From Stackebrandtia nassauensis DSM 44728 (GTDB lineage: Bacteria; Actinomycetota; Actinomycetes; Mycobacteriales; Micromonosporaceae), in NCBI RefSeq assembly GCF_000024545.1, contig NC_013947.1, positions 1,860,001 to 1,924,000 on the forward strand: a stretch of 64,000 nucleotides of DNA, given 5' to 3'. The position numbers were made by a program, and so were the translations under genes. This document shows positions 46,660 through 56,967 of the stretch, piece by piece (position 1 is the first letter of the stretch; each line of letters opens with the position of its first letter). The notes below the pieces were generated by a model. The model was not told the origin of the DNA. It worked only from the letters and a program-made list of their open reading frames with translations, and made no database searches.

Positions 46660-46688
46660 TTGACGCGTGATCGTGTCGTAGCCACACT
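46660..46688 (+). promoter_or_regulatory. Likely promoter of the demethylation operon
   Basis: TTGACG (46660-46665) is 17 nt from CACACT (46683-46688), close to a TAnnnT -10. Transcription would start near 46695. Confidence 0.5.
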
Positions 46689-46700
46689 TGAGTTGCGCAG

Positions 46701-46714
46701 GGAACAACAGTTCC
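46701..46714. promoter_or_regulatory. IclR-type dyad in the operon leader
   Basis: GGAAC-AACA-GTTCC has perfect 5-bp arms. GTTGCG (46692-46697) and CGCAAC (46721-46726) form a second pair around it. IclR-family operators have similar layouts, and an IclR gene closes the operon. Confidence 0.55.
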
Positions 46715-46752
46715 TTAATACGCAACACATCTGAAGCACCGCCATCACGTCG

Positions 46753-46788: not shown

Positions 46789-48000
46789 ATGTCCCAGACA
46801 ATGAATCCCGCGGCAGCCCTCACGTCCAGCGCGGCTGTCCTCAATCCCGAGATCATGCTGTACACGCGACTGCGCAAGTCGCCCTACTTCTGGAAATCCC
46901 GCGAACACGGCGTGGCTATGTACAGTGTGTACAACCACACCTATCATCCCCGGCACTACGGTGACCCGGTCGGCGAGTACTGGTCGCTGCTCAACGGCGT
47001 CACCATCTGGGACGTCGGCGTCGAACGCCAGGTGGAGATCTCCGGCCCGGACGCCTTCGCGTTCACCAACATGCTGGTGCCGCGCGATCTGTCCAAATGC
47101 AAGGTCGGGCAGTGCAAGTACGTCTTCATCACCGCTCCCGACGGCGGCATCATCAACGACCCGGTGCTGCTTCGCCTTGAGGAGAACCGGTTCTGGCTGT
47201 CGCTGGCCGACAGCGACGTCGAACTGTGGGCACTGGGCCTTGCCCACGCGGGCGGCTGGAACGTCGAGATCAAGGAGATCGACGTGGCCCCGATCCAGAT
47301 CCAGGGCCCGAAGTCGCGCGAGCTCATGATCGACCTGTTTGGTAAATCCATTCTGGACCTGCCGTACTACTATCTCAACCACTACACCTTGAACGGCATG
47401 GAGGTCGTCGTCAGCCGTACCGGCTACACGGCCGAGATCGGCTACGAGATCTACCTGTACAACGCCGACCACGACGCCGGGAAACTGTGGGACACGGTGT
47501 GGCAGGCCGGGGAACCGCACGGACTGCGCCCGGTCGGGCCCTGCCACATCCGGCGCATCGAGGCCGGGATGCTGGCCTACGGCTGCGACATCACCCGCGA
47601 CACCAATCCCATGGAGGTCGGCTACGACTACAAGTGGATGGTCGACGTGGACCAGGAGTCCGACTTCATCGGCAAGGCCGCGCTCAAACGCATCCGCGAC
47701 GAGGGCATCAGCCGGATCATGTGCGGCGTCGAGATCGACGGCGACCCGTTGGGCAGCTACAACGACGGCTCCATGATCGACAGGTTCGCCGTGTACTCCG
47801 GCGACGGCGGCAAGGTCGGTGAGGTCACCAGCGCCTGCTACTCGCCGCGCCTGGAACGCAATATCGGCCTGGCCATGCTCGACATCGGACACAGCGAACT
47901 GGGAACCAAGGTCGGCATCGTGACGCCCGGCGGTCCGCGCGGCGGCGTCGTGGTCCCCAAGCCGTTCATCGACCCGCGCAAGGAAACCCCGAAGGGGTGA
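46789..48000 (+). CDS. DmdA/GcvT-like THF-dependent methyltransferase (demethylase)
   Basis: 403 residues. It belongs to the GcvT fold, with segments close to DMSP demethylase DmdA (VYNHTYHP, IWDVGVERQVEISGPDA and MLVPRDLSKCKVGQCKY) but without proof of that substrate. In this family the methyl of a sulfonium or quaternary amine passes to tetrahydrofolate. GGAGG is 6 nt upstream of the ATG. It opens an operon of folate C1 enzymes. Confidence 0.82.
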   Translation: MSQTMNPAAALTSSAAVLNPEIMLYTRLRKSPYFWKSREHGVAMYSVYNHTYHPRHYGDPVGEYWSLLNGVTIWDVGVERQVEISGPDAFAFTNMLVPRDLSKCKVGQCKYVFITAPDGGIINDPVLLRLEENRFWLSLADSDVELWALGLAHAGGWNVEIKEIDVAPIQIQGPKSRELMIDLFGKSILDLPYYYLNHYTLNGMEVVVSRTGYTAEIGYEIYLYNADHDAGKLWDTVWQAGEPHGLRPVGPCHIRRIEAGMLAYGCDITRDTNPMEVGYDYKWMVDVDQESDFIGKAALKRIRDEGISRIMCGVEIDGDPLGSYNDGSMIDRFAVYSGDGGKVGEVTSACYSPRLERNIGLAMLDIGHSELGTKVGIVTPGGPRGGVVVPKPFIDPRKETPKG

Positions 48001-48030
48001 GGCGGGCGAGGAAGCGACGGGAGACCAGTC

Positions 48031-48900
48031 ATGAGCATGAGCGCGGCTCTGTCCCGCGTCCGCATGAGACGGACGGCCAGCCGGCTGCTGGCTGAACCCC
48101 GCTTCGAGGTGCTGCCGCTGGAGAGGGTGGACCGGGAGGTGGCCGCGCTGCCGCGCGGCACCACGGTCACCATCACCGCCTCCCCCTCCCGCGGCACCAT
48201 GGCCACCGTCGAGACCGCCGAGCGGTTCGCCGCCCTGGGTCTGCGGCCGGTGCCGCACCTGTCGGCGCGCGGCATGCGCGACGACGCCGAACTCGTGGAA
48301 GTGGTGCAGCGCCTGGACCACGCGGGCATCCGGGACGCCTTCGTGGTCGGGGGCGACGCCTCGTCGGCCTCGGCGGTGTTCCCCGACGGCCTGGCGCTGC
48401 TTCAGGCCATGGACGACATCGGCCACCGGCTCCACGACATCGGCATCCCGGCCTATCCCGAAGGCCATCCGTCCATAGACGACGACACCCTGTGGGCAGC
48501 GCTGGCGGCCAAACGCCGCTACGCCACCTACGCGGTGACGCAGCTGTGCTTCGACGCCGAGGCCATCTGCCGCTTCACCGTCCAGGCGCGACAACGCGGC
48601 TTCGACCTACCGATCCTGGCCGGGATCCCCGGAGCCGTCGACACCGCGAAACTGCTGCGGGTCGGGCTGCGCATCGGCATCGGCGACTCGCTGCGGTTCG
48701 TGCGCGGCAACCGGAGTGTGCTGCGCAAACTGCTGCGTCCCGGTGGTTACCGTCCCGACGGGCTGGTCCGGAAGCTGGACGGCCGCGTCCGCGACGGCCG
48801 CTGCGAACTGGCCGGGGCGCACATCTACACGTTCAACGACGTCGCCGCGACGGCGCGTTGGCTCAAGGGGAGGACAGCCGTATATGACCATGCCCAGTGA
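48031..48900 (+). CDS. MetF-like methylenetetrahydrofolate reductase, divergent
   Basis: 289 residues. The barrel shape and the segments VTITASPSRGTMATVETAERFAAL and DHAGIRDAFVVGGDA align with the VTYGAGGS and AGIRNILALRGD regions of MetF, but key positions differ. E28 of the FEVLP segment may correspond to the catalytic Glu of VSFEFFPP. It would reoxidise 5-methyl-THF to 5,10-methylene-THF. It overlaps the next gene by 17 nt. Confidence 0.78.
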   Translation: MSMSAALSRVRMRRTASRLLAEPRFEVLPLERVDREVAALPRGTTVTITASPSRGTMATVETAERFAALGLRPVPHLSARGMRDDAELVEVVQRLDHAGIRDAFVVGGDASSASAVFPDGLALLQAMDDIGHRLHDIGIPAYPEGHPSIDDDTLWAALAAKRRYATYAVTQLCFDAEAICRFTVQARQRGFDLPILAGIPGAVDTAKLLRVGLRIGIGDSLRFVRGNRSVLRKLLRPGGYRPDGLVRKLDGRVRDGRCELAGAHIYTFNDVAATARWLKGRTAVYDHAQ

Positions 48901-50581
48901 CCTCGACATATCCCGCGAGACCGTGACCCTGCCGCTGTCGGACATCGCCGAGCGCTGCGGGATCCCGGCGTCGTTGACCGAACCCTACGGCCGCTTCGCC
49001 GCCAAGGTCTCGCTGGACGCCGTGGCGGCGCTGTCGCAGCGGCCGCGCGGCAAGTACGTGGTGGTCACCGCGATCACGCCCACCCCGCTGGGGGAGGGCA
49101 AGACCACCGTGACCGTCGGGCTGGGCCAGGGACTCAACCACATCGGCAAACGGGCGGCCATCGCGATCCGGCAGCCGTCCATGGGCCCGACCTTCGGCAT
49201 CAAGGGCGGCGCGGCCGGTGGCGGCTACGCCCAGGTGGTGCCGATGGAGACCATCAACCTGCACCTGACCGGCGACATGCACGCCGTCACCGCCGCCCAC
49301 AACCTGCTGGCGGCCATGATCGACAACCACCTCCACAAGGGAAACAGTCTGGGCATCGACCCGCACTCGGTGACCTGGCGGCGGGTGCTGGACGTCAACG
49401 ACCGTGACCTGCGCGACATCGTCACCGGACTGGGGAGCCGCGCCGACGGCACCCCGCGCCAGACCGGTTTCGACATCACCGCCGCCAGCGAGGTCATGGC
49501 GATCCTGGCACTGTCCACTTCGCTGGCCGACCTGCGAAACCGCCTGGGGCGCATCGTCATCGGCTTCACCGCCGACGGCGCCGCCGTCACCGCCGAGGAC
49601 CTCAAAGCGGCCGGGGCGATGTGCGTGATCCTGCGCGACGCCCTCAACCCCAACCTGATGCAGACCGTCGAGGGCACCCCCGCGTTCGTGCACTGCGGAC
49701 CGTTCGGGAACATCGCGCACGGCAACTCGTCCATCGTGGCGGACCTGATCGGACTGCGCAGCGCCGACTACCTCGTCACCGAGGCCGGTTTCGGCGCCGA
49801 CATGGGTGCCGAACGCTTCTTCAACATCAAGTGCCGCGCATCGGGTCTCACCCCGGACGCGGCGGTCCTGGTGGCGACAGTCCGGGGACTCAAAGCCCAC
49901 AGTGGCCGGTACCGGATCGTCGCCGGACGGCCGCTGCCGCCCGAACTGCTGGCCGAGAACCCCGGCGACGTCGAGGCCGGTGCCGACAACCTGCGCCGCC
50001 AGATCGCCAACGTCCGCCGCCACGGCGTGTCCCCGGTGGTGGCCGTCAACGCCTTCGACACCGACCACGACAGCGAACACCGCGTCATCGCCGACATCGC
50101 CGCCGCCGAGGGCGCGCACGTCGCCATCAGCAGCCACTTCACCCGGGGCGGCAAGGGCGCCGCCGAACTGGCCGAGGCGGTGGTCGCCGCCTGCGACGAA
50201 CCCGGCCGGTTCACGCCGCTGTACCCCGACGAGGCCTCGCTGACCGACAAGGTCGAGACCGTGGCGCGCGAGATCTACGGCGCCGACGGCGTCGACTTCG
50301 CGCCCGCCGCCGCCAAACGCCTGGCCGCCTACGAATCCGGCGGCTACGGACGGCTGCCGGTGTGCATCGCCAAGACGCACCTGTCGCTGTCGCACGACCC
50401 GGCGCTCAAGGGCGCGCCGACCGGCTGGCGGCTGCCGGTGCGGGAGGCGCGGCTGTCGGCGGGCGCGGGCTTCGTGTACCTGGTGTGCGGCGACATGCGC
50501 ACCATGCCGGGCCTGTCCTCGGCCCCGGCCGCCGAACGCATAGACATCGACGAACAAGGACGGGTGGTGGGCTTGTCATGA
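48884..50581 (+). CDS. fhs: Formate-tetrahydrofolate ligase
   Basis: 565 residues, normal length. The ATP loop is TPTPLGEGKTTVTVGL, and the family signatures IAIRQPSMGPTFGIKGGAAGGGYAQV and VEGTPAFVHCGPFGNIAHGNSS are complete. It interconverts formate, ATP and THF with 10-formyl-THF. In an oxidising pathway it can run backwards, freeing formate and making ATP. The ATG lies inside the end of the MetF-like gene; GGGGAGG is about 10 nt upstream. Confidence 0.95.
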   Translation: MTMPSDLDISRETVTLPLSDIAERCGIPASLTEPYGRFAAKVSLDAVAALSQRPRGKYVVVTAITPTPLGEGKTTVTVGLGQGLNHIGKRAAIAIRQPSMGPTFGIKGGAAGGGYAQVVPMETINLHLTGDMHAVTAAHNLLAAMIDNHLHKGNSLGIDPHSVTWRRVLDVNDRDLRDIVTGLGSRADGTPRQTGFDITAASEVMAILALSTSLADLRNRLGRIVIGFTADGAAVTAEDLKAAGAMCVILRDALNPNLMQTVEGTPAFVHCGPFGNIAHGNSSIVADLIGLRSADYLVTEAGFGADMGAERFFNIKCRASGLTPDAAVLVATVRGLKAHSGRYRIVAGRPLPPELLAENPGDVEAGADNLRRQIANVRRHGVSPVVAVNAFDTDHDSEHRVIADIAAAEGAHVAISSHFTRGGKGAAELAEAVVAACDEPGRFTPLYPDEASLTDKVETVAREIYGADGVDFAPAAAKRLAAYESGGYGRLPVCIAKTHLSLSHDPALKGAPTGWRLPVREARLSAGAGFVYLVCGDMRTMPGLSSAPAAERIDIDEQGRVVGLS

Positions 50582-51864
50582 CCATGGAAATGGCCGACCT
50601 GTTCTCGCGCAGGCAGGGCGACCGGAGCGAGACCGTCGCCAGGATGGGGCGGCTGCTGGCCGCGCTGGGCCAACCGCAGTCGCACTTCGCGGCCATCCAC
50701 GTCACCGGCACCAACGGCAAGACCACCACGGCCCGCATGATCGAGGCGCTGCTGCGCGAACACGGTGTCCACACCGGAGCGTTCATCTCGCCGCACCTGC
50801 AGGACGTGCGGGAGCGGGTCCTCGTCGACGGCGAACCGATCACCGAGGACGACCTGTACGAGTGGCTGTCCCATGTCGACATCAACGGTGCCGCCGTGGC
50901 CGGGCCGGGCGGTCACACGCCGTCCTTCTTCGAGACCATGACGGCACTGGCGTTCAGCCACTTCGCCCGCGAGAAGGTCGACGTCGCGGTCGTGGAGGCC
51001 GGACGGGGTGGACTGCGCGACGCCACCAACGTCCTGCACGCGCCGGTGGCGGTGCTGGGCCCGGTCGCGCTCGACCACCCCGACCTGGGCAGCACCACCG
51101 CCGAGATCGCCGCCGACAAGGCCGACATCATCGCGCCCGAAGGCACCGTCGTCATCGGACCGCAGGAGGACCAGGCCGCCGCGGCGATCGCGGCCGCCGC
51201 CCACAACCGCCGCGCCCGGTCGCTGCGGCACGGCGTCGACCTGGAGGTCCGCGACTGGCAGCCCACCACCACCGGACAGTGGTTTCGGGCCGTGCTGCCC
51301 GGCGGCGTGACCATCCCCGTCGACCTGCCGCTGGTGGGCCGCCACCACGCCGACAACGCGCTGCTGGCGCTGGCCGCCGTGCAGGCCTGGCGGGGCGAAG
51401 TGGACGACGAGGCCGCCTGGCGCTGCCTGTCGAAGTTCACCGCGCCGGGGCGGTGCGAGATCGTGCGCCGTCGCGGCAAGGCCGCGGTGTGGCTGGACGG
51501 CGCCCACAATCCCGCCGCCGCCAGCGCGCTGGCCACGGCGCTGGCCGAGATCCCCGGCACCGCCCGGGTGATCCTGGTCGCCGGGATCGCCGCCGACAAG
51601 GACACCGACGGCGTGCTGGCGGCGCTGGCACCGGTGACCCACCGCGCCGTGCTGGCCCCGGTGCCCAACGCCCGGGGCGGCGACCCGCAGCGGCACCGCC
51701 ACACCCTTGCCGCCCATGGCATCCGTCCGTACCTGGCCGCCAATGCCGACGAGGCGCTCGACATGGCCGACCAACTGGCCCGGCAGCGGGACGTCGTCCT
51801 GGTGACCGGATCTCTGTACACAGTAGGCGCTGTGAGGGACCGTCTCGGTCTCGTCGCGCAGTGA
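50578..51864 (+). CDS. folC: FolC-like folylpolyglutamate/dihydrofolate synthase
   Basis: 428 residues from ATG 50578, overlapping the fhs stop by 4 nt. The ATP loop is HVTGTNGKTTTARMIEALL, followed by FISPHLQDVRERV and the VVEAGRGGLRDATN segment (a Gly-Leu variant of the usual GLGGRLDATN). The C-terminal ligase domain has WLDGAHNPAA. It adds glutamates to folate, keeping cofactor in the cell for the pathway. It may be a second, pathway-dedicated copy. Confidence 0.9.
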   Translation: MTMEMADLFSRRQGDRSETVARMGRLLAALGQPQSHFAAIHVTGTNGKTTTARMIEALLREHGVHTGAFISPHLQDVRERVLVDGEPITEDDLYEWLSHVDINGAAVAGPGGHTPSFFETMTALAFSHFAREKVDVAVVEAGRGGLRDATNVLHAPVAVLGPVALDHPDLGSTTAEIAADKADIIAPEGTVVIGPQEDQAAAAIAAAAHNRRARSLRHGVDLEVRDWQPTTTGQWFRAVLPGGVTIPVDLPLVGRHHADNALLALAAVQAWRGEVDDEAAWRCLSKFTAPGRCEIVRRRGKAAVWLDGAHNPAAASALATALAEIPGTARVILVAGIAADKDTDGVLAALAPVTHRAVLAPVPNARGGDPQRHRHTLAAHGIRPYLAANADEALDMADQLARQRDVVLVTGSLYTVGAVRDRLGLVAQ

Positions 51865-51889
51865 TCGACCCGAAAGAGGAGGAGAGCCA

Positions 51890-54406
51890 ATGAGCACCGT
51901 CCCCGCGCAGGCCGACGTCGTCGTCATCGGAGCCGGGATCGTGGGTAACTCCCTGATCCATCACCTGGCCGAGCAGGGCGTGCGCGACATCGTCCAGATC
52001 GACAAGGGACCGCTGCCCGATCCGGGCGGCTCCACCGGGCACGCGTCCAACTTCATCTTCCCCGTCGATCACTCCAAGGAGATCACCGCGCTGACGCTGG
52101 ACTCCATGCGGCAGTACGAGAAGTTCGGCACCCTCACCACCTGCGGCGGCATCGAGATCGCCCGCAACGACGACCGGGTCGCCGAGTTGCACCGCCGGAT
52201 GTCCTCGGCCAAGGCCTGGGGCATCGAGTCCGAACTCATCTCGGCCGACCGGGTCGGTGAACTGGTCCCGTTCATCAACACCAAACTCGTCAAACTCGGC
52301 TTCCACACCCCCTCGGTGGCCGTCGTCGATCCACTGCGGACCGGAGCCCTGATGCGCGAGAACGCGCAGCGGCTCGGTGCGCTGACGATCTGCGCCAACA
52401 CCGAGGTCGTCGGCCTCGACACCACCGGCGGCCGGATCACCGGCGTGCGCACCTCGCACGGCGACATCGCCTGCGGCACCGTCGTCATCGCCTGCGGCGT
52501 GTGGAGCCCCAGGATCGCCGCGATGGCCGGGGCCCGGATCCCGCTGACCCCGGCGGTGCACCAGATGATCGACGTCGGCCCGATCCCGGTGCTGGCCGAG
52601 ACCCGCACCGAGATCGCCTTCCCGATCGTGCGGGACATGGACCCGCTGATGTACGAGCGGCAGAGCGGCGCCGACCTGGAGGTCGGTTCCTACGCGCACC
52701 GCGCGATCCTGCACGACCCCGACGACATACCGTCCATTGAGGCGTCCGCGTTGTCACCGACCCAGCTGCCGTTCACCGCCGAGGACTTCGATCCCCAGAT
52801 GGAGGACGCGCTGGACCTGTTCGGCGAGGTGCTCGACGCCGAGGGCGCCGGAATCCGGCACGCCATCAACGGTCTGCTGTCGCTGACCCCCGACGGGCAG
52901 CCGCTGCTGGGCGAGACCCCCGAGGTCAAGGGACTGTGGTCGGCCGCGGCGGTGTGGATCAAGGAGGGACCCGGCGTCGGACGGATGCTGGCCCAGTGGA
53001 TGACCGGCGGTCACACCGAGATCGACCTGCACGGCGCCGACATCTCCCGGTTCTACCCGCATCAGCGCACTAAGCATCACGTCAACGCCCGCACCACCGA
53101 GGGCTTCAACAAGACCTACGGCATCGTCCACCCCCGGGAACAGTGGACCTCCAACCGGCCGCAACGCCGATCCCCGTTCTACGAAAGGGAAGTGGCGCTG
53201 GGCGCCGAGTTCTTCGAGGTCGGCGGCTGGGAACGTCCGCAGTGGTACGAGTCCAACCTGTCGCTGGTCGCCGAGTACGCCGACCGGATCCCGGCCCGCC
53301 CCGACGAATGGGACGCCCGCTGGTGGTCGCCGATCATCAACGCCGAACACCTGGCGATGCGGGAACGGGTCGCCATGATCGACCTGTCGGCCTTCGCGCA
53401 CTTCGACGTCACCGGTTCCGGTGCGGTGGAATACATCCAGCGCATGACGGTGGCGCAGATGGACCGTCCGGTGGGGAGGATCATGTACACCCCGGTGCTG
53501 AACCCGGCCGGGGGCTTCCGCAGCGACCTGACCGTGGTACGGCTGGGCGACAACCACTACCGGGTCATCGCCGGTGGCGCCGACGGCGCCCGCGACCTGA
53601 AGTGGTTCACCGACAACCTGCCGTCCGACGGCTCGGTGTCGCTGGCCGACCTGTCCTCGGCGACCGGCACCGTCGGGGTCTGGGGGCCCCGGGCCCGCGA
53701 CCTGCTGTCCAGCATCAGCGACGACGACCTGTCCGACGCGGGCTTCGGTTTCGGCACCGCCCGGCACATCACGATCGACGGCGTCCCCGTCCTGGCGATG
53801 CGCATCTCCTATGTGGGCGAACTCGGCTGGGAACTGCACGCCCCCTTCGAACAGGGCGCCCGGCTGTGGGACGCCATCGCCGCCGCCGGTGAACCCTTCG
53901 GCTGCGTACCGGCGGGCATCGGCGTCTACGGCACCACCGGACGACTCGAGAAGGGCTACCGGCTGTTCGGGGCCGAACTCGACGGCGAGTACGACCCGGT
54001 CGAGGCCGGGCTGGCGCTGCCGAAGGTCAAGGCCGCCGAGTTCATCGGCAAGGACGCCTACCTGCGGGCCCGCCAGGGCGAACCGGTCGCCAAACTGTGC
54101 ACCCTCACCGTCGACGACCACCACGACCCGCGCGGCACGTTGCGCTACCCACAGGGGACCGAGCCGATCCTCACCCCCGAGGGCAAACGCCTCGTCGACG
54201 CCAAAGGCCGCAGCTCCTATGTGACCAGTGCCGGTTCGGGGCCGTCCCTGGGCCGCTACCTGCTGATGGCGTACCTGCCGCTCGAACACGCCGTCGAGGG
54301 CACCGCGCTGGCCGTCGAGTACATGGGCAACACCTACCCGGTGACGGTGGCGCGAGTGGGCCGCAAGCCGCTGTTCGACCCCGAGGACGAGCGAATGAAG
54401 GCATGA
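51890..54406 (+). CDS. FAD-dependent dimethylglycine/sarcosine dehydrogenase-like enzyme fused to GcvT
   Basis: 838 residues. The FAD-binding VVVIGAGIVGNSL is at about 10-22. The segment GGSTGHASNF places H51 where covalent flavin-linking histidine sits in dimethylglycine oxidase. The amine-oxidase domain covers about 1-400, then a linker and the GcvT-like THF domains (about 420-838). It demethylates a tertiary or secondary N-methyl amine, passing formaldehyde to THF as 5,10-methylene-THF. ETF genes follow directly, so it is a dehydrogenase and not an oxidase. Substrate specificity is not provable from sequence. Confidence 0.9.
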   Translation: MSTVPAQADVVVIGAGIVGNSLIHHLAEQGVRDIVQIDKGPLPDPGGSTGHASNFIFPVDHSKEITALTLDSMRQYEKFGTLTTCGGIEIARNDDRVAELHRRMSSAKAWGIESELISADRVGELVPFINTKLVKLGFHTPSVAVVDPLRTGALMRENAQRLGALTICANTEVVGLDTTGGRITGVRTSHGDIACGTVVIACGVWSPRIAAMAGARIPLTPAVHQMIDVGPIPVLAETRTEIAFPIVRDMDPLMYERQSGADLEVGSYAHRAILHDPDDIPSIEASALSPTQLPFTAEDFDPQMEDALDLFGEVLDAEGAGIRHAINGLLSLTPDGQPLLGETPEVKGLWSAAAVWIKEGPGVGRMLAQWMTGGHTEIDLHGADISRFYPHQRTKHHVNARTTEGFNKTYGIVHPREQWTSNRPQRRSPFYEREVALGAEFFEVGGWERPQWYESNLSLVAEYADRIPARPDEWDARWWSPIINAEHLAMRERVAMIDLSAFAHFDVTGSGAVEYIQRMTVAQMDRPVGRIMYTPVLNPAGGFRSDLTVVRLGDNHYRVIAGGADGARDLKWFTDNLPSDGSVSLADLSSATGTVGVWGPRARDLLSSISDDDLSDAGFGFGTARHITIDGVPVLAMRISYVGELGWELHAPFEQGARLWDAIAAAGEPFGCVPAGIGVYGTTGRLEKGYRLFGAELDGEYDPVEAGLALPKVKAAEFIGKDAYLRARQGEPVAKLCTLTVDDHHDPRGTLRYPQGTEPILTPEGKRLVDAKGRSSYVTSAGSGPSLGRYLLMAYLPLEHAVEGTALAVEYMGNTYPVTVARVGRKPLFDPEDERMKA

Positions 54407-55182
54407 CGATGGACATACTGGTTTGCGTCAAACGGGTGCCCGGCACCGGATCCAGCGTGCCCATCACCGACGATGGCCTGTCCGTCGACACCCGGCACCT
54501 GGGGTTCACCATCGGCCCGCACGAGGAGTGCGCCGTCGAGGAGGCGATCCGGCTGACCGACACCCACGGCGGCGAGGTGACGGTGCTGACGGCCGGACCC
54601 GCCGAGGCCGCCGAACAGCTGCGCTACGCGCTGGCCATGGGCGCCCACCACGGCGTCCTGGCCGACACCGGCACCACCGACCTCGACCCGCAGGCCACCG
54701 CGACCGTCCTGGCCACCGCCTTGACCCAACTGCGCGCCGACGGCCGCGACTTCGACCTGATCCTGTTCGGCAACGAATCCGCCGACGCCGGGAACTACCA
54801 GGTCGGCATCCGGGTCGCCTGCGAACTGGGACTGTCCATAGTCGGCGGTATCAAGGGCATCGACGTCGACACCGACGCTCGCCGGGTGCGGCTGCGCCGC
54901 GACACACCCGAGGGAATAGAGGTGTACGAGGCGGCGCTGCCGACCGCCGTCGCCGTCAAGGAGGGCCTGAACCTGCCGCGCTACCCCAGCGTGCGCGGCC
55001 GGATCCGGTCCCGCAAGGCCCAGCTGCGGCCGGTCGAGGTGACCCCGCTGCCCGGCGGCCTGCGCAAACTCCGGCTGCGCCCGGCACCCGACAAGGGCGA
55101 GGCGACGGTGGTGCTGGGGCACGGCCCCGACGCCGCCATCGCGGTCGCCGACCTCTTCGACGAACTGGGGGTCACGCCATGA
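54403..55182 (+). CDS. etfB: Electron transfer flavoprotein beta subunit
   Basis: 259 residues from ATG 54403 (GAAGG upstream), overlapping the preceding stop by 4 nt. ILVCVKRVPGTG and FGNESADAGNYQVGIRVA are ETF-beta signatures, with the AMP/FAD-contact region conserved. It accepts electrons from the upstream dehydrogenase. Confidence 0.94.
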   Translation: MTMDILVCVKRVPGTGSSVPITDDGLSVDTRHLGFTIGPHEECAVEEAIRLTDTHGGEVTVLTAGPAEAAEQLRYALAMGAHHGVLADTGTTDLDPQATATVLATALTQLRADGRDFDLILFGNESADAGNYQVGIRVACELGLSIVGGIKGIDVDTDARRVRLRRDTPEGIEVYEAALPTAVAVKEGLNLPRYPSVRGRIRSRKAQLRPVEVTPLPGGLRKLRLRPAPDKGEATVVLGHGPDAAIAVADLFDELGVTP

Positions 55183-56126
55183 TCCTCACGTTCGTGGAAC
55201 ACGACGGCCGCCGACCCACAGCCGCCAGCCTCACCGCGCTCACCGTCGCGCGCGGCCTCGGCGAACCCGCGGCGGTCTGCTTCACCGACCCGGCCGACGC
55301 GGCACCGCTGCTGGCCGAACTGGCCGCCTACGGCGCCGCGACGGTCCACCTCGTCGACGGCGCGGGGGAGTACTCCCCGGAACGCTGGGGTGCGGCGCTG
55401 TCACAGCTGATCGGCGACGTCCGTCCCGGCGTGGTGGTCGCGCCCGCCAGCGACCGCGGCAACGAGGTCGCGGCCCAGGCCGCCGCCCGGGCCCGGCTCC
55501 CGCTGGCCACCGGCTGCGTCGAGGTCGCCGCCGACGGCACCGTCACCCGGGTACGCGGCGGCGGCATCCTGCTGGAGGACGCCGCCGTGGACGCCGGAAC
55601 CCGGATGGTCACCGTCCTGCCCACCGCCGCCGAAGCCCACCAGGCCCCGCGCCCGGGCGAAGCCGTACCGCACACCTTCGTCCCCGACCTGGACGGCATC
55701 GCCGCCACCCGGCTCGTCGACCGGGCCCCGCGCGGCGCGGGCGTCGCCCTGGCCACCGCGCCGGTGGTCGTGTCGGGCGGGCGCGGTGTCGGCAGCGCCG
55801 AGGGCTTCGCCCCGCTCGAGGAACTGGCCGCCCTCATCGGCGGCGCGGTCGGCTGCTCCCGGGTGGCCACCAACAACGGCTGGCGCCCGCACTCCGACCA
55901 GGTCGGCCAGACCGGCACCAAGGTCAACCCGCGCCTGTACATCGCCTGCGGCATCTCCGGCGCCACCCAGCACTGGGTGGGCTGCATGGACTCCAAGGCG
56001 ATCCTGGCCATCAACACCGACCCCGACGCGCCCATGGTCACCCGCGCCTCCTACGCGGTGATCGGCGACGTCCACGAAGTACTCGACGCCGTCATCCAGG
56101 AGGTCCGCCGCCGGAAAGCACAGTGA
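55179..56126 (+). CDS. etfA: Electron transfer flavoprotein alpha subunit
   Basis: 315 residues. It starts within the etfB stop (ATGA overlap). The FAD-binding C-terminal domain has VVVSGGRGVGS, GQTGTKVNPRLYIACGISGATQHWVG and AINTDPDAP. With EtfB it hands electrons to the quinone pool through ETF-quinone oxidoreductase, which is not in this window. Confidence 0.94.
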   Translation: MILTFVEHDGRRPTAASLTALTVARGLGEPAAVCFTDPADAAPLLAELAAYGAATVHLVDGAGEYSPERWGAALSQLIGDVRPGVVVAPASDRGNEVAAQAAARARLPLATGCVEVAADGTVTRVRGGGILLEDAAVDAGTRMVTVLPTAAEAHQAPRPGEAVPHTFVPDLDGIAATRLVDRAPRGAGVALATAPVVVSGGRGVGSAEGFAPLEELAALIGGAVGCSRVATNNGWRPHSDQVGQTGTKVNPRLYIACGISGATQHWVGCMDSKAILAINTDPDAPMVTRASYAVIGDVHEVLDAVIQEVRRRKAQ

Positions 56127-56129
56127 ACG

Positions 56130-56158
56130 TTCGGGATCCTTTACATGGCCGGTAGACT
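56130..56158 (+). promoter_or_regulatory. Promoter of the iclR gene
   Basis: TTCGGG (56130-56135) and TAGACT (56153-56158) are 17 nt apart, and GTG 56167 follows after 8 nt, suggesting a leaderless mRNA separate from the operon message. Confidence 0.5.
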
Positions 56159-56166
56159 CAGAAGGC

Positions 56167-56967
56167 GTGGTCTCCGACGGCAATACCAGCGACCCCAATC
56201 ACGTCCAGTCAGTGACGAGGGCGGTATCCATTCTGGAGTTTCTCGCGTCCAACGAATGGTCCGGTGTCACCGAGGTGGGGACCGAACTCGGCGTCCACAA
56301 GTCCACCGCCTCCCGGCTGCTCAACACCCTGGAAAGCCGCGGCCTGGTCGAACAGCACGTCGAAAGCGGCAAGTACCGGCTCGGCCTGGGCCTGGTCCAC
56401 CTCGCCAACTCCGTCAGCCACGGTCCCGACATCACCCGGCAGGCGGCGGTCGGCTGCCAATGGCTGGCCCGCCGCACCGAGGAGACCGTCACCCTGGCGA
56501 TCCTCGAGGGCGACGAGGCGGTCACCATCGACCAGATCCTGTCCACCTCCACCGTCGCCAGCCGCAGCTGGCTGGGCCGCCGCACCCCACTGCACTGCAC
56601 CGCCCCGGGCAAGGTCTTCCTGGCCAACGCCAGCCAACCCTGGCGTGACCGCATCCTGCCGGGCCCCCACGAGCGCTACACCGACGCCACCATCGTCGAC
56701 CCGGCCGAACTGCGCGCCGAACTGGAACGCGTCCGCGCCGAGGGCTACGCCACCACCAACGAGGAGTTCGAGGAAGGCCTGTCCGCCGCCGCCGCTCCCG
56801 TCTGCGCGGCCGACGGCGAGGTCGTCGCGGCCATCGGCATCTCCGGCCCCTCCTACCGCCTCGACGCCGCCGGTCTACGCGAACTGGCCCCGATCGTCCG
56901 CGAAGCCGGGGAACGCGCGTCCATCGGCCGCGGTTACACCCAGCGTGACGACGGCACCGAGACATGA
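56167..56967 (+). CDS. IclR-family transcriptional regulator
   Basis: 266 residues. The winged HTH (about 12-75: VQSVTRAVSILEFLASNEWSGVTEVGTELGVHKSTASRLL) and the C-terminal ligand domain (LHCTAPGKVFLA, AAAAPVCAADGEVVAAIGISGP) are typical. It lies 40 nt after etfA and probably controls the demethylation operon, whose leader has a GGAAC-N4-GTTCC dyad. Confidence 0.92.
   Translation: MVSDGNTSDPNHVQSVTRAVSILEFLASNEWSGVTEVGTELGVHKSTASRLLNTLESRGLVEQHVESGKYRLGLGLVHLANSVSHGPDITRQAAVGCQWLARRTEETVTLAILEGDEAVTIDQILSTSTVASRSWLGRRTPLHCTAPGKVFLANASQPWRDRILPGPHERYTDATIVDPAELRAELERVRAEGYATTNEEFEEGLSAAAAPVCAADGEVVAAIGISGPSYRLDAAGLRELAPIVREAGERASIGRGYTQRDDGTET

Follow-up and report, generated by a model that had tools for sequence, protein, structure and literature searches.

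A conserved gene cluster of Stackebrandtia nassauensis predicted to break down glycine betaine through a cobalamin-free first step

Glycine betaine is of major importance both as an osmolyte and as a nutrient, and its breakdown pathway is a stepwise loss of methyl groups via dimethylglycine and sarcosine. In this report, we focused on eight co-directional genes in a 64,000-nt stretch of the Stackebrandtia nassauensis DSM 44728 genome (NC_013947.1, a single contig of 6,841,557 bases), hereafter the window. They encode a DmdA-like protein with the fold of the glycine cleavage T-protein GcvT, a MetF-like protein, the formate–tetrahydrofolate (THF) ligase Fhs, a FolC-like folylpolyglutamate synthase, a fusion of FAD and GcvT modules of the dimethylglycine oxidase/dehydrogenase (DMGO/DMGDH) type, the electron transfer flavoprotein (ETF) subunits EtfB and EtfA, and an IclR-family regulator. 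Our main finding is that this cluster is real and conserved, and we predict it to be an operon for glycine betaine breakdown whose first step needs no cobalamin; we infer this substrate from the gene neighbourhoods of relatives. That the cluster breaks down glycine betaine, the DmdA-like protein moving one methyl to THF without cobalamin or oxygen, is in our judgement fairly probable from comparative sequence analysis.

In the mechanism that we propose, the DmdA-like protein would convert glycine betaine and THF into dimethylglycine and methyl-THF, with no need for cobalamin or oxygen. The fusion would take dimethylglycine to sarcosine, trapping the one-carbon unit as methylene-THF, with EtfB/EtfA as electron acceptor. 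Oxidation of methyl-THF to methylene-THF would fall to the MetF-like protein and the next conversion, to formyl-THF, to FolD, which is encoded elsewhere; Fhs would release formate with formation of ATP. Until substrate is present, the cluster is probably kept repressed by the IclR protein, acting at a tandem palindrome beside a promoter-like site. A previous reading of the window, made from the sequence alone (the sequence-only reading), had outlined a pathway for a methylated substrate with a DmdA-type first step, a DMGO/DMGDH-type second step and one-carbon oxidation through reversed Fhs. This outline is consistent with the comparative evidence, whereas its description of the substrate as unknown need no longer stand, since the neighbours in relatives point to glycine betaine. 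Its term "self-contained" is also too strong because FolD and the one BCCT transporter found lie outside the cluster; it was right that FolD is absent from the cluster, the sole match in the genome being near 5.35 Mb.

Identity and conservation of the cluster

The DmdA-like protein is neither a housekeeping GcvT nor DmdA proper. Its best relative of solved structure is P. ubique DmdA (3tfh; 255 bits, 36% identity). However, it scores below the DmdA model NF009133 (344.8 bits, cut-off 410) and below both GcvT models (178.9 bits, cut-off 300, and 148.5 bits, cut-off 235.85). In two trees, the 25 actinobacterial DmdA-like rows form one clade (support 100/100 and 100/99), apart from the strain's own gcvT, which sits on a long branch. 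A separate 15-row DmdA clade holds SAR11 and Phaeobacter DmdA together with a Marivivens protein from a dmd-type operon, and a joint clade of the DmdA-like proteins with DmdA is rejected by the approximately unbiased test (p-AU 0.004, for groups named after earlier trees). Model scores and trees thus rule out a housekeeping GcvT, and the sequence-only reading was correct in keeping the protein apart from that family; DmdA proper is ruled out by the cut-off, the separate clade and the rejected joint clade. The stretch RSG(W/Y)SKQGG of DmdA reads RTGYTAEIG in the DmdA-like protein. No dmdB, dmdC or dmdD partner was found among the eight cluster and eight flanking genes scanned, and the 20 neighbour proteins scanned in relatives included one AidB-type acyl-CoA dehydrogenase and no acyl-CoA ligase or hydratase; dmd-type partner genes do occur at the Phaeobacter and Marivivens loci.

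Gene order was compared among relatives found by a profile search of a species-genome collection, using a 15-sequence alignment that included the window protein. This search gave 170 stretches encoding a relative, and locus counts refer to the best 80 of these 170, with neighbours called by tblastn. The order DmdA-like–MetF–Fhs–DMGO–EtfB–EtfA is complete at 27 of the 80 actinobacterial loci, so the grouping is not due to chance, and the expectation that gene order would be kept in relatives is borne out. A MetF-like gene lies within 500 bp 3' of the DmdA-like gene on the same strand at 64/80 loci, while Fhs is found at 57, EtfB at 37 and EtfA at 36. A GcvT or DMGO reaction yields no methyl-THF; because MetF is the usual neighbour, its presence next door suggests that the product of the first enzyme is methyl-THF, not methylene-THF. 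DMGO homologues occur at 67/80 loci, SoxB, SoxA and SoxG (sarcosine oxidase) together at 21/80, and either at 71/80. In a second layout (Saccharopolyspora, Actinopolyspora and others), the DMGO gene is directly 5' of the DmdA-like gene with sarcosine oxidase genes near; Pfam scans of one representative each identified SoxA, SoxD, SoxG, an FAD-dependent SoxB-like protein and a cyclodeaminase-family protein. The last of these, encoded at 7/80 loci, may replace the missing cyclohydrolase in relatives. FolC, in contrast to its standing in the sequence-only reading, is an occasional passenger: it is beside the DmdA-like gene at 2/80 loci (Ca. Stackebrandtia faecavium and one Euzebyaceae metagenome-assembled genome), which rules it out as a core member. 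In the window, it is perhaps a local means to polyglutamylate THF for the pathway.

The fusion is a relative of dimethylglycine oxidase in which, as judged from alignments, the catalytic residues are kept. Its similarity to Arthrobacter DMGO spans the full length (545 bits, compared with 305 for human DMGDH), and the second-layout DMGO scores even higher against the Arthrobacter enzyme (885 bits). D546 aligns with D552 of Arthrobacter DMGO, which we take to be the folate-site Asp and which is Ala in chain 3gsi. H51 corresponds to the FAD-linking His91 of human DMGDH, as given in a passage of PMC5082570, and H224 and Y255 correspond to the H225/Y259 dyad of Arthrobacter DMGO, numbered as in the title of a reference in the same article. 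Of 69 proteins compared, 67 keep the FAD-linked His, 68 the dyad His, 68 the dyad Tyr and all 69 the folate-domain Asp. The adjoining EtfBA genes suggest that the fusion is an ETF-linked dehydrogenase.

The association extends beyond immediate neighbours. In a survey of 396 genomes of the phylum, the DmdA-like protein was detected in 68 at E≤1e-50, and we used 55 places with at least 57% identity in 52 genomes, dropping lower-identity rows, including a 44–52% paralogue group, and two short extra pieces in genomes already counted. DMGO (called at E≤1e-100) is present in 48/52 genomes with the DmdA-like protein vs 43/344 without, counts that may be low because only the two best first-look candidates were scored per genome. 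The corresponding figures for SoxD are 25/52 vs 25/344, and 51 of the 52 genomes have DMGO or SoxD. The surveyed genomes are related, so Fisher p-values overstate the significance of these differences. DMGO lies within 10 kb of the DmdA-like gene at 32/55 places, many contigs being short.

Glycine betaine and competing substrates

We favour glycine betaine because the neighbours in relatives are dimethylglycine, sarcosine and BCCT genes. Candidates for the first two demethylation steps are in the cluster, and sarcosine oxidase is linked in 21/80 relatives, but SoxD was not found in S. nassauensis itself. At the locus of Amycolatopsis palatopharyngis (L085), one stretch encodes BetT, a BCCT protein, two DMGOs, IclR, the DmdA-like protein, MetF and Fhs. 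Its BetT choline transporter scores 1022 bits (cut-off 695), and the BCCT protein, clipped by the locus edge, has the betaine BCCT model as its best (434 bits, cut-off 650); weaker BCCT matches (32–33%) occur at L040 and L043. Haloarchaeal relatives, 38–41% identical, adjoin MetF plus varied partners at three of the four loci examined: two DMGO homologues and threonine ammonia-lyase at L117; FolD, BCCT and threonine ammonia-lyase at L122; and Fhs, FolD and FAD oxidoreductases at L124, one of which, when compared, was 34% identical to the window fusion. Between the MetF of Haloarcula hispanica and that of the window, identity is 39%. The plasmid loci L122 and L124 also combine the DmdA-like gene with FolD and PabB (an aminodeoxychorismate-synthase component), and L124 with dihydropteroate synthase, as if these plasmids bring their own folate supply. 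A section of PMC3102087 describes four haloarchaea with DMGO adjoining BCCT genes and suggests betaine use. As for known routes, the S. nassauensis genome has no MTTB-family (MtgB) match, and its two matches to the GbcA model are far below a cut-off that no control genome reached either.

Several observations weigh against glycine betaine breakdown by this cluster. Neither DMGO nor Sox is present at 9/80 loci, of which three end early at contig ends (the sequence stops ~1–2 kb downstream at L039 and L083, and <1 kb upstream at L083 and L084), and two Arthrobacter loci with full flanks (L025, L028) have no other cluster gene within 10 kb. At both, an MFS-type transporter gene follows the DmdA-like gene, as read by eye. 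A fourth haloarchaeal locus (Haloarcula sp. GH36) has none of the neighbours listed above, and betaine gave no growth enhancement in Haloquadratum walsbyi, one of the four haloarchaea, according to the same section of PMC3102087. In Roseobacteraceae, a relative with 51–53% identity has acyl-CoA genes as its neighbours. Closer to home, the distribution is patchy, the protein being absent from the one same-family genome and all 14 same-order genomes listed. In S. nassauensis itself, the only BCCT match is unlinked and below the cut-off of the betaine BCCT model (547 bits vs 650), SoxD was not found with a query that matches in 50/396 genomes, and a genome search gave no ETF–quinone oxidoreductase (ETF-QO) domain. 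The genome does contain an open frame of 750 residues (G000:C1:79750-80385) that matches CCG twice and could encode an EtfD-like ETF dehydrogenase.

The strongest competing explanation, which we consider unlikely, is that the methyl donor of the first enzyme is a different onium compound—dimethylsulfoniopropionate (DMSP) or another sulfonium, proline betaine, an unusual N-methyl amino acid or a carnitine-type compound—and that the fusion strips further methyls from the product. DmdA is after all the closest characterized relative, and more distant family members keep other company. On Loktanella and Phaeobacter plasmids, the 51–53% group belongs to a fixed set of Lrp, DmdA-like, OsmC, enoyl-CoA hydratase and acyl-CoA synthetase genes (L116:11974-16121, L118:7971-12049, L127:7971-12057), which is probably another demethylating cluster. 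On a Lichenihabitans plasmid (L119:6603-11170), a 50% relative accompanies MetF, PurU, FolD, an FAD oxidoreductase and amino-acid ABC transporters, a set that probably acts on a different N-methyl substrate. Because the neighbours of these relatives differ, substrates probably differ across the wider DmdA-like family. What argues for glycine betaine over these compounds is the linkage of DMGO or sarcosine oxidase at 71 of the 80 loci, the intact catalytic set of DMGO and the missing SKQGG motif of DmdA.

It is improbable that MetF and Fhs work here in the biosynthetic direction, the cluster supplying methyls for methionine and the DmdA-like enzyme acting as a salvage methyl collector. Both enzymes are reversible, which is in favour of this role, and an excerpt of PMC11306105 reports that DMSP methyls enter the methionine cycle in Phaeobacter inhibens. 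However, the eight genes include no methionine synthase, the cluster holds a fusion of a type that produces methylene-THF together with ETF, and relatives have Sox and cyclodeaminase-type genes. Furthermore, when compared with solved structures, the MetF-like protein is nearest to chain 7xg9, presumably the catabolic MetF of SYK-6. Last, a LigM/DesA-type system for THF-dependent O-demethylation, under an IclR regulator of aromatic catabolism, is very improbable, since, although LigM-metF-ligH clusters are a known analogue and IclR regulators often govern aromatic catabolism, the LigM and DesA models match the DmdA-like protein weakly (51.8 and 72 bits), ruling out a LigM-type identity, and the 20 neighbour proteins scanned in relatives include no aromatic pathway set (single loci have a Rieske oxygenase, at L026, with a GbcA match far below cut-off, and a PaaE-like reductase, at L085).

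Gene families, putative operator and surroundings

Coordinates confirm the eight genes in one direction (Table 1), separated by gaps of +30, −17, −4, +25, −4, −4 and +40 nt, in agreement with the sequence-only reading; the genes are presumably co-transcribed. Pfam and NCBIfam uphold the family calls of the sequence-only reading: GCV_T and GCV_T_C for the DmdA-like protein, MTHFR for the MetF-like protein, FTHFS (837 bits) for Fhs, Mur ligase/FolC for FolC, DAO, FAO_M, GCV_T and GCV_T_C for the fusion, ETF for EtfB, ETF and ETF_alpha for EtfA, and IclR for the regulator. The genes 5' of the cluster (serine-dehydratase-like, RidA-like and M20 peptidase) and 3' of it (BaxI-like and ABC transporter) show no sign of belonging to it.

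Table 1. Genes of the cluster and upstream sequence elements, in window coordinates
Feature	Position	Strand	Remark
Promoter-like site TTGACG, 17 nt, CACACT	46660-46688	+	read from sequence
Tandem palindrome GTTG-N9-CAAC-N-GTTC-N9-CAAC	46692-46726	.	0 mismatches to GTTS pattern; putative operator
DmdA-like/GcvT-fold protein, 403 aa	46789-48000	+	predicted glycine betaine:THF methyltransferase
MetF-like protein, 289 aa	48031-48900	+	predicted oxidation of methyl-THF to methylene-THF
Fhs, formate–THF ligase, 565 aa	48884-50581	+	predicted direction: formate + ATP
FolC-like folylpolyglutamate synthase, 428 aa	50578-51864	+	outside conserved core
DMGO/DMGDH-type FAD/GcvT fusion, 838 aa	51890-54406	+	predicted dimethylglycine:ETF oxidoreductase
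EtfB, 259 aa	54403-55182	+	family scans
EtfA, 315 aa	55179-56126	+	family scans
IclR-family regulator, 266 aa	56167-56967	+	family scans

The tandem palindrome upstream of the DmdA-like gene is a probable IclR operator, as predicted from its conservation and from its uniqueness in the genome, which together give the call its weight. It is the only site in the 6.84-Mb genome at up to one mismatch; at two mismatches, the two strands together give 13 rows vs 4 in a reversed control. A like site (up to two mismatches, centre spacing 1–2) lies between −400 and +90 of the DmdA-like gene at 37/80 loci, a count that is partly circular since the pattern was first read by eye in upstream sequences, while the rest of those loci, ~1.6 Mb, holds 19 like sites in total. 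An IclR gene follows EtfA on the same strand at 13 of the 27 full-order loci, and the palindrome is present in 11 of these 13 vs 26 of the 67 others (p 0.005). A permissive pattern allowing three mismatches is, in the window alone, no rarer than expected by chance, as 28 of 100 shuffles match it. The promoter-like site was not listed by an automatic consensus scan; similar TTGACG...CACACT/CAGACT stretches were seen by eye 5' of the operator in several relatives.

Wider family and comparison with known systems

A broader proposal is that betaine catabolism in actinobacteria, haloarchaea and SAR11 begins with a sister family of DmdA, betaine:THF methyltransferases that need neither cobalamin nor oxygen, and that a marine T4-like phage has a copy; this we regard as doubtful but possible. 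The actinobacterial clade groups with a haloarchaeal/SAR11 clade in two trees, and this grouping stays a lead because its support fell from 98/87 (74 rows) to 68/0 (40 rows) and a haloarchaeal, SAR11 and DmdA clade was not quite rejected (p-AU 0.0502); in an earlier tree, made without SAR11 rows of the haloarchaeal type, the haloarchaeal rows had no resolved place. A DmdA-like gene of the haloarchaeal/SAR11 type, clipped by the contig end, is found on a viral contig (IMGVR_UViG_3300006315_000185, L154:3149-4024) that by eye also has T4-type sliding clamp and clamp loader-like genes, and is possibly a phage auxiliary metabolic gene; of two further viral scans, one gave no match and the other this contig alone. 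This viral match led to a large protein family (7054 sequences in one cluster), in which the three named members among the 120 listed are all Ca. Pelagibacter. For one member (P0318, 452 aa), identity is 52.6% with the Haloarcula protein and 37% with the window DmdA-like protein; this uncharacterized SAR11 family resembles the haloarchaeal form. Paralogues also occur in one actinobacterial family (f15; L128–L132, L144–L147), with up to four DmdA-like matches per genome, the paralogues at 44–52% identity and some in tandem. They adjoin Rieske-like oxygenase genes (GbcA far below cut-off in the one scanned) and, as read by eye, SerA-like and aminotransferase-like genes, and a MetF-like gene is also present at L128.

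If the broader proposal is true, an abundant SAR11 protein family would gain a function, and a very common osmolyte a fourth route of demethylation. A DmdA-like enzyme that transfers methyls directly to THF and is coupled to MetF and Fhs would differ from the known routes, and energy could be conserved from the methyl groups. It would also bear on many genes of actinobacteria and haloarchaea whose present annotation is glycine cleavage T-type protein, and it offers a candidate function for an uncharacterized SAR11 protein.

Comparison with known systems highlights similarities and differences. With DmdA, the window protein has in common the GcvT fold, YNH and ERQVEISG-like stretches, N-D-P residues and, by prediction, redox-neutral methyl transfer to THF; unlike DmdA, it has no SKQGG motif, and its partners are MetF, Fhs and DMGO instead of DmdB, DmdC and DmdD. 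The fusion resembles Arthrobacter globiformis DMGO end to end, with matching catalytic residues and a THF-linked role in dimethylglycine catabolism, but is accompanied by EtfBA; to our knowledge, the A. globiformis DMGO cluster has no DmdA-like gene. In LigM/DesA-MetF-Fhs clusters, THF is likewise the methyl acceptor that feeds MetF and Fhs, the difference being the weak model matches. Two GcvT-like aminomethyltransferases of SAR11 are comparable, and for them passages of PMC3160333 partly anticipate our idea: SAR11_1303, near opuA, was postulated to have a role in betaine use, and SAR11_1265, which adjoins metF, was speculated to be a second DMSP demethylation enzyme. In open-access titles and the beginnings of abstracts, a search scope that left most subscription papers and preprints outside, we found no report of a betaine:THF methyltransferase of the DmdA/GcvT family, and neither GcvT nor DmdA occurs in PMC12478193, which lists the known betaine demethylation systems, namely the GbcAB monooxygenase, homocysteine-dependent Bhmt and cobalamin-dependent MtgBCD. 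The route predicted here would carry out the same overall reaction as these three systems, betaine to dimethylglycine, but with no requirement for O2, homocysteine or cobalamin.

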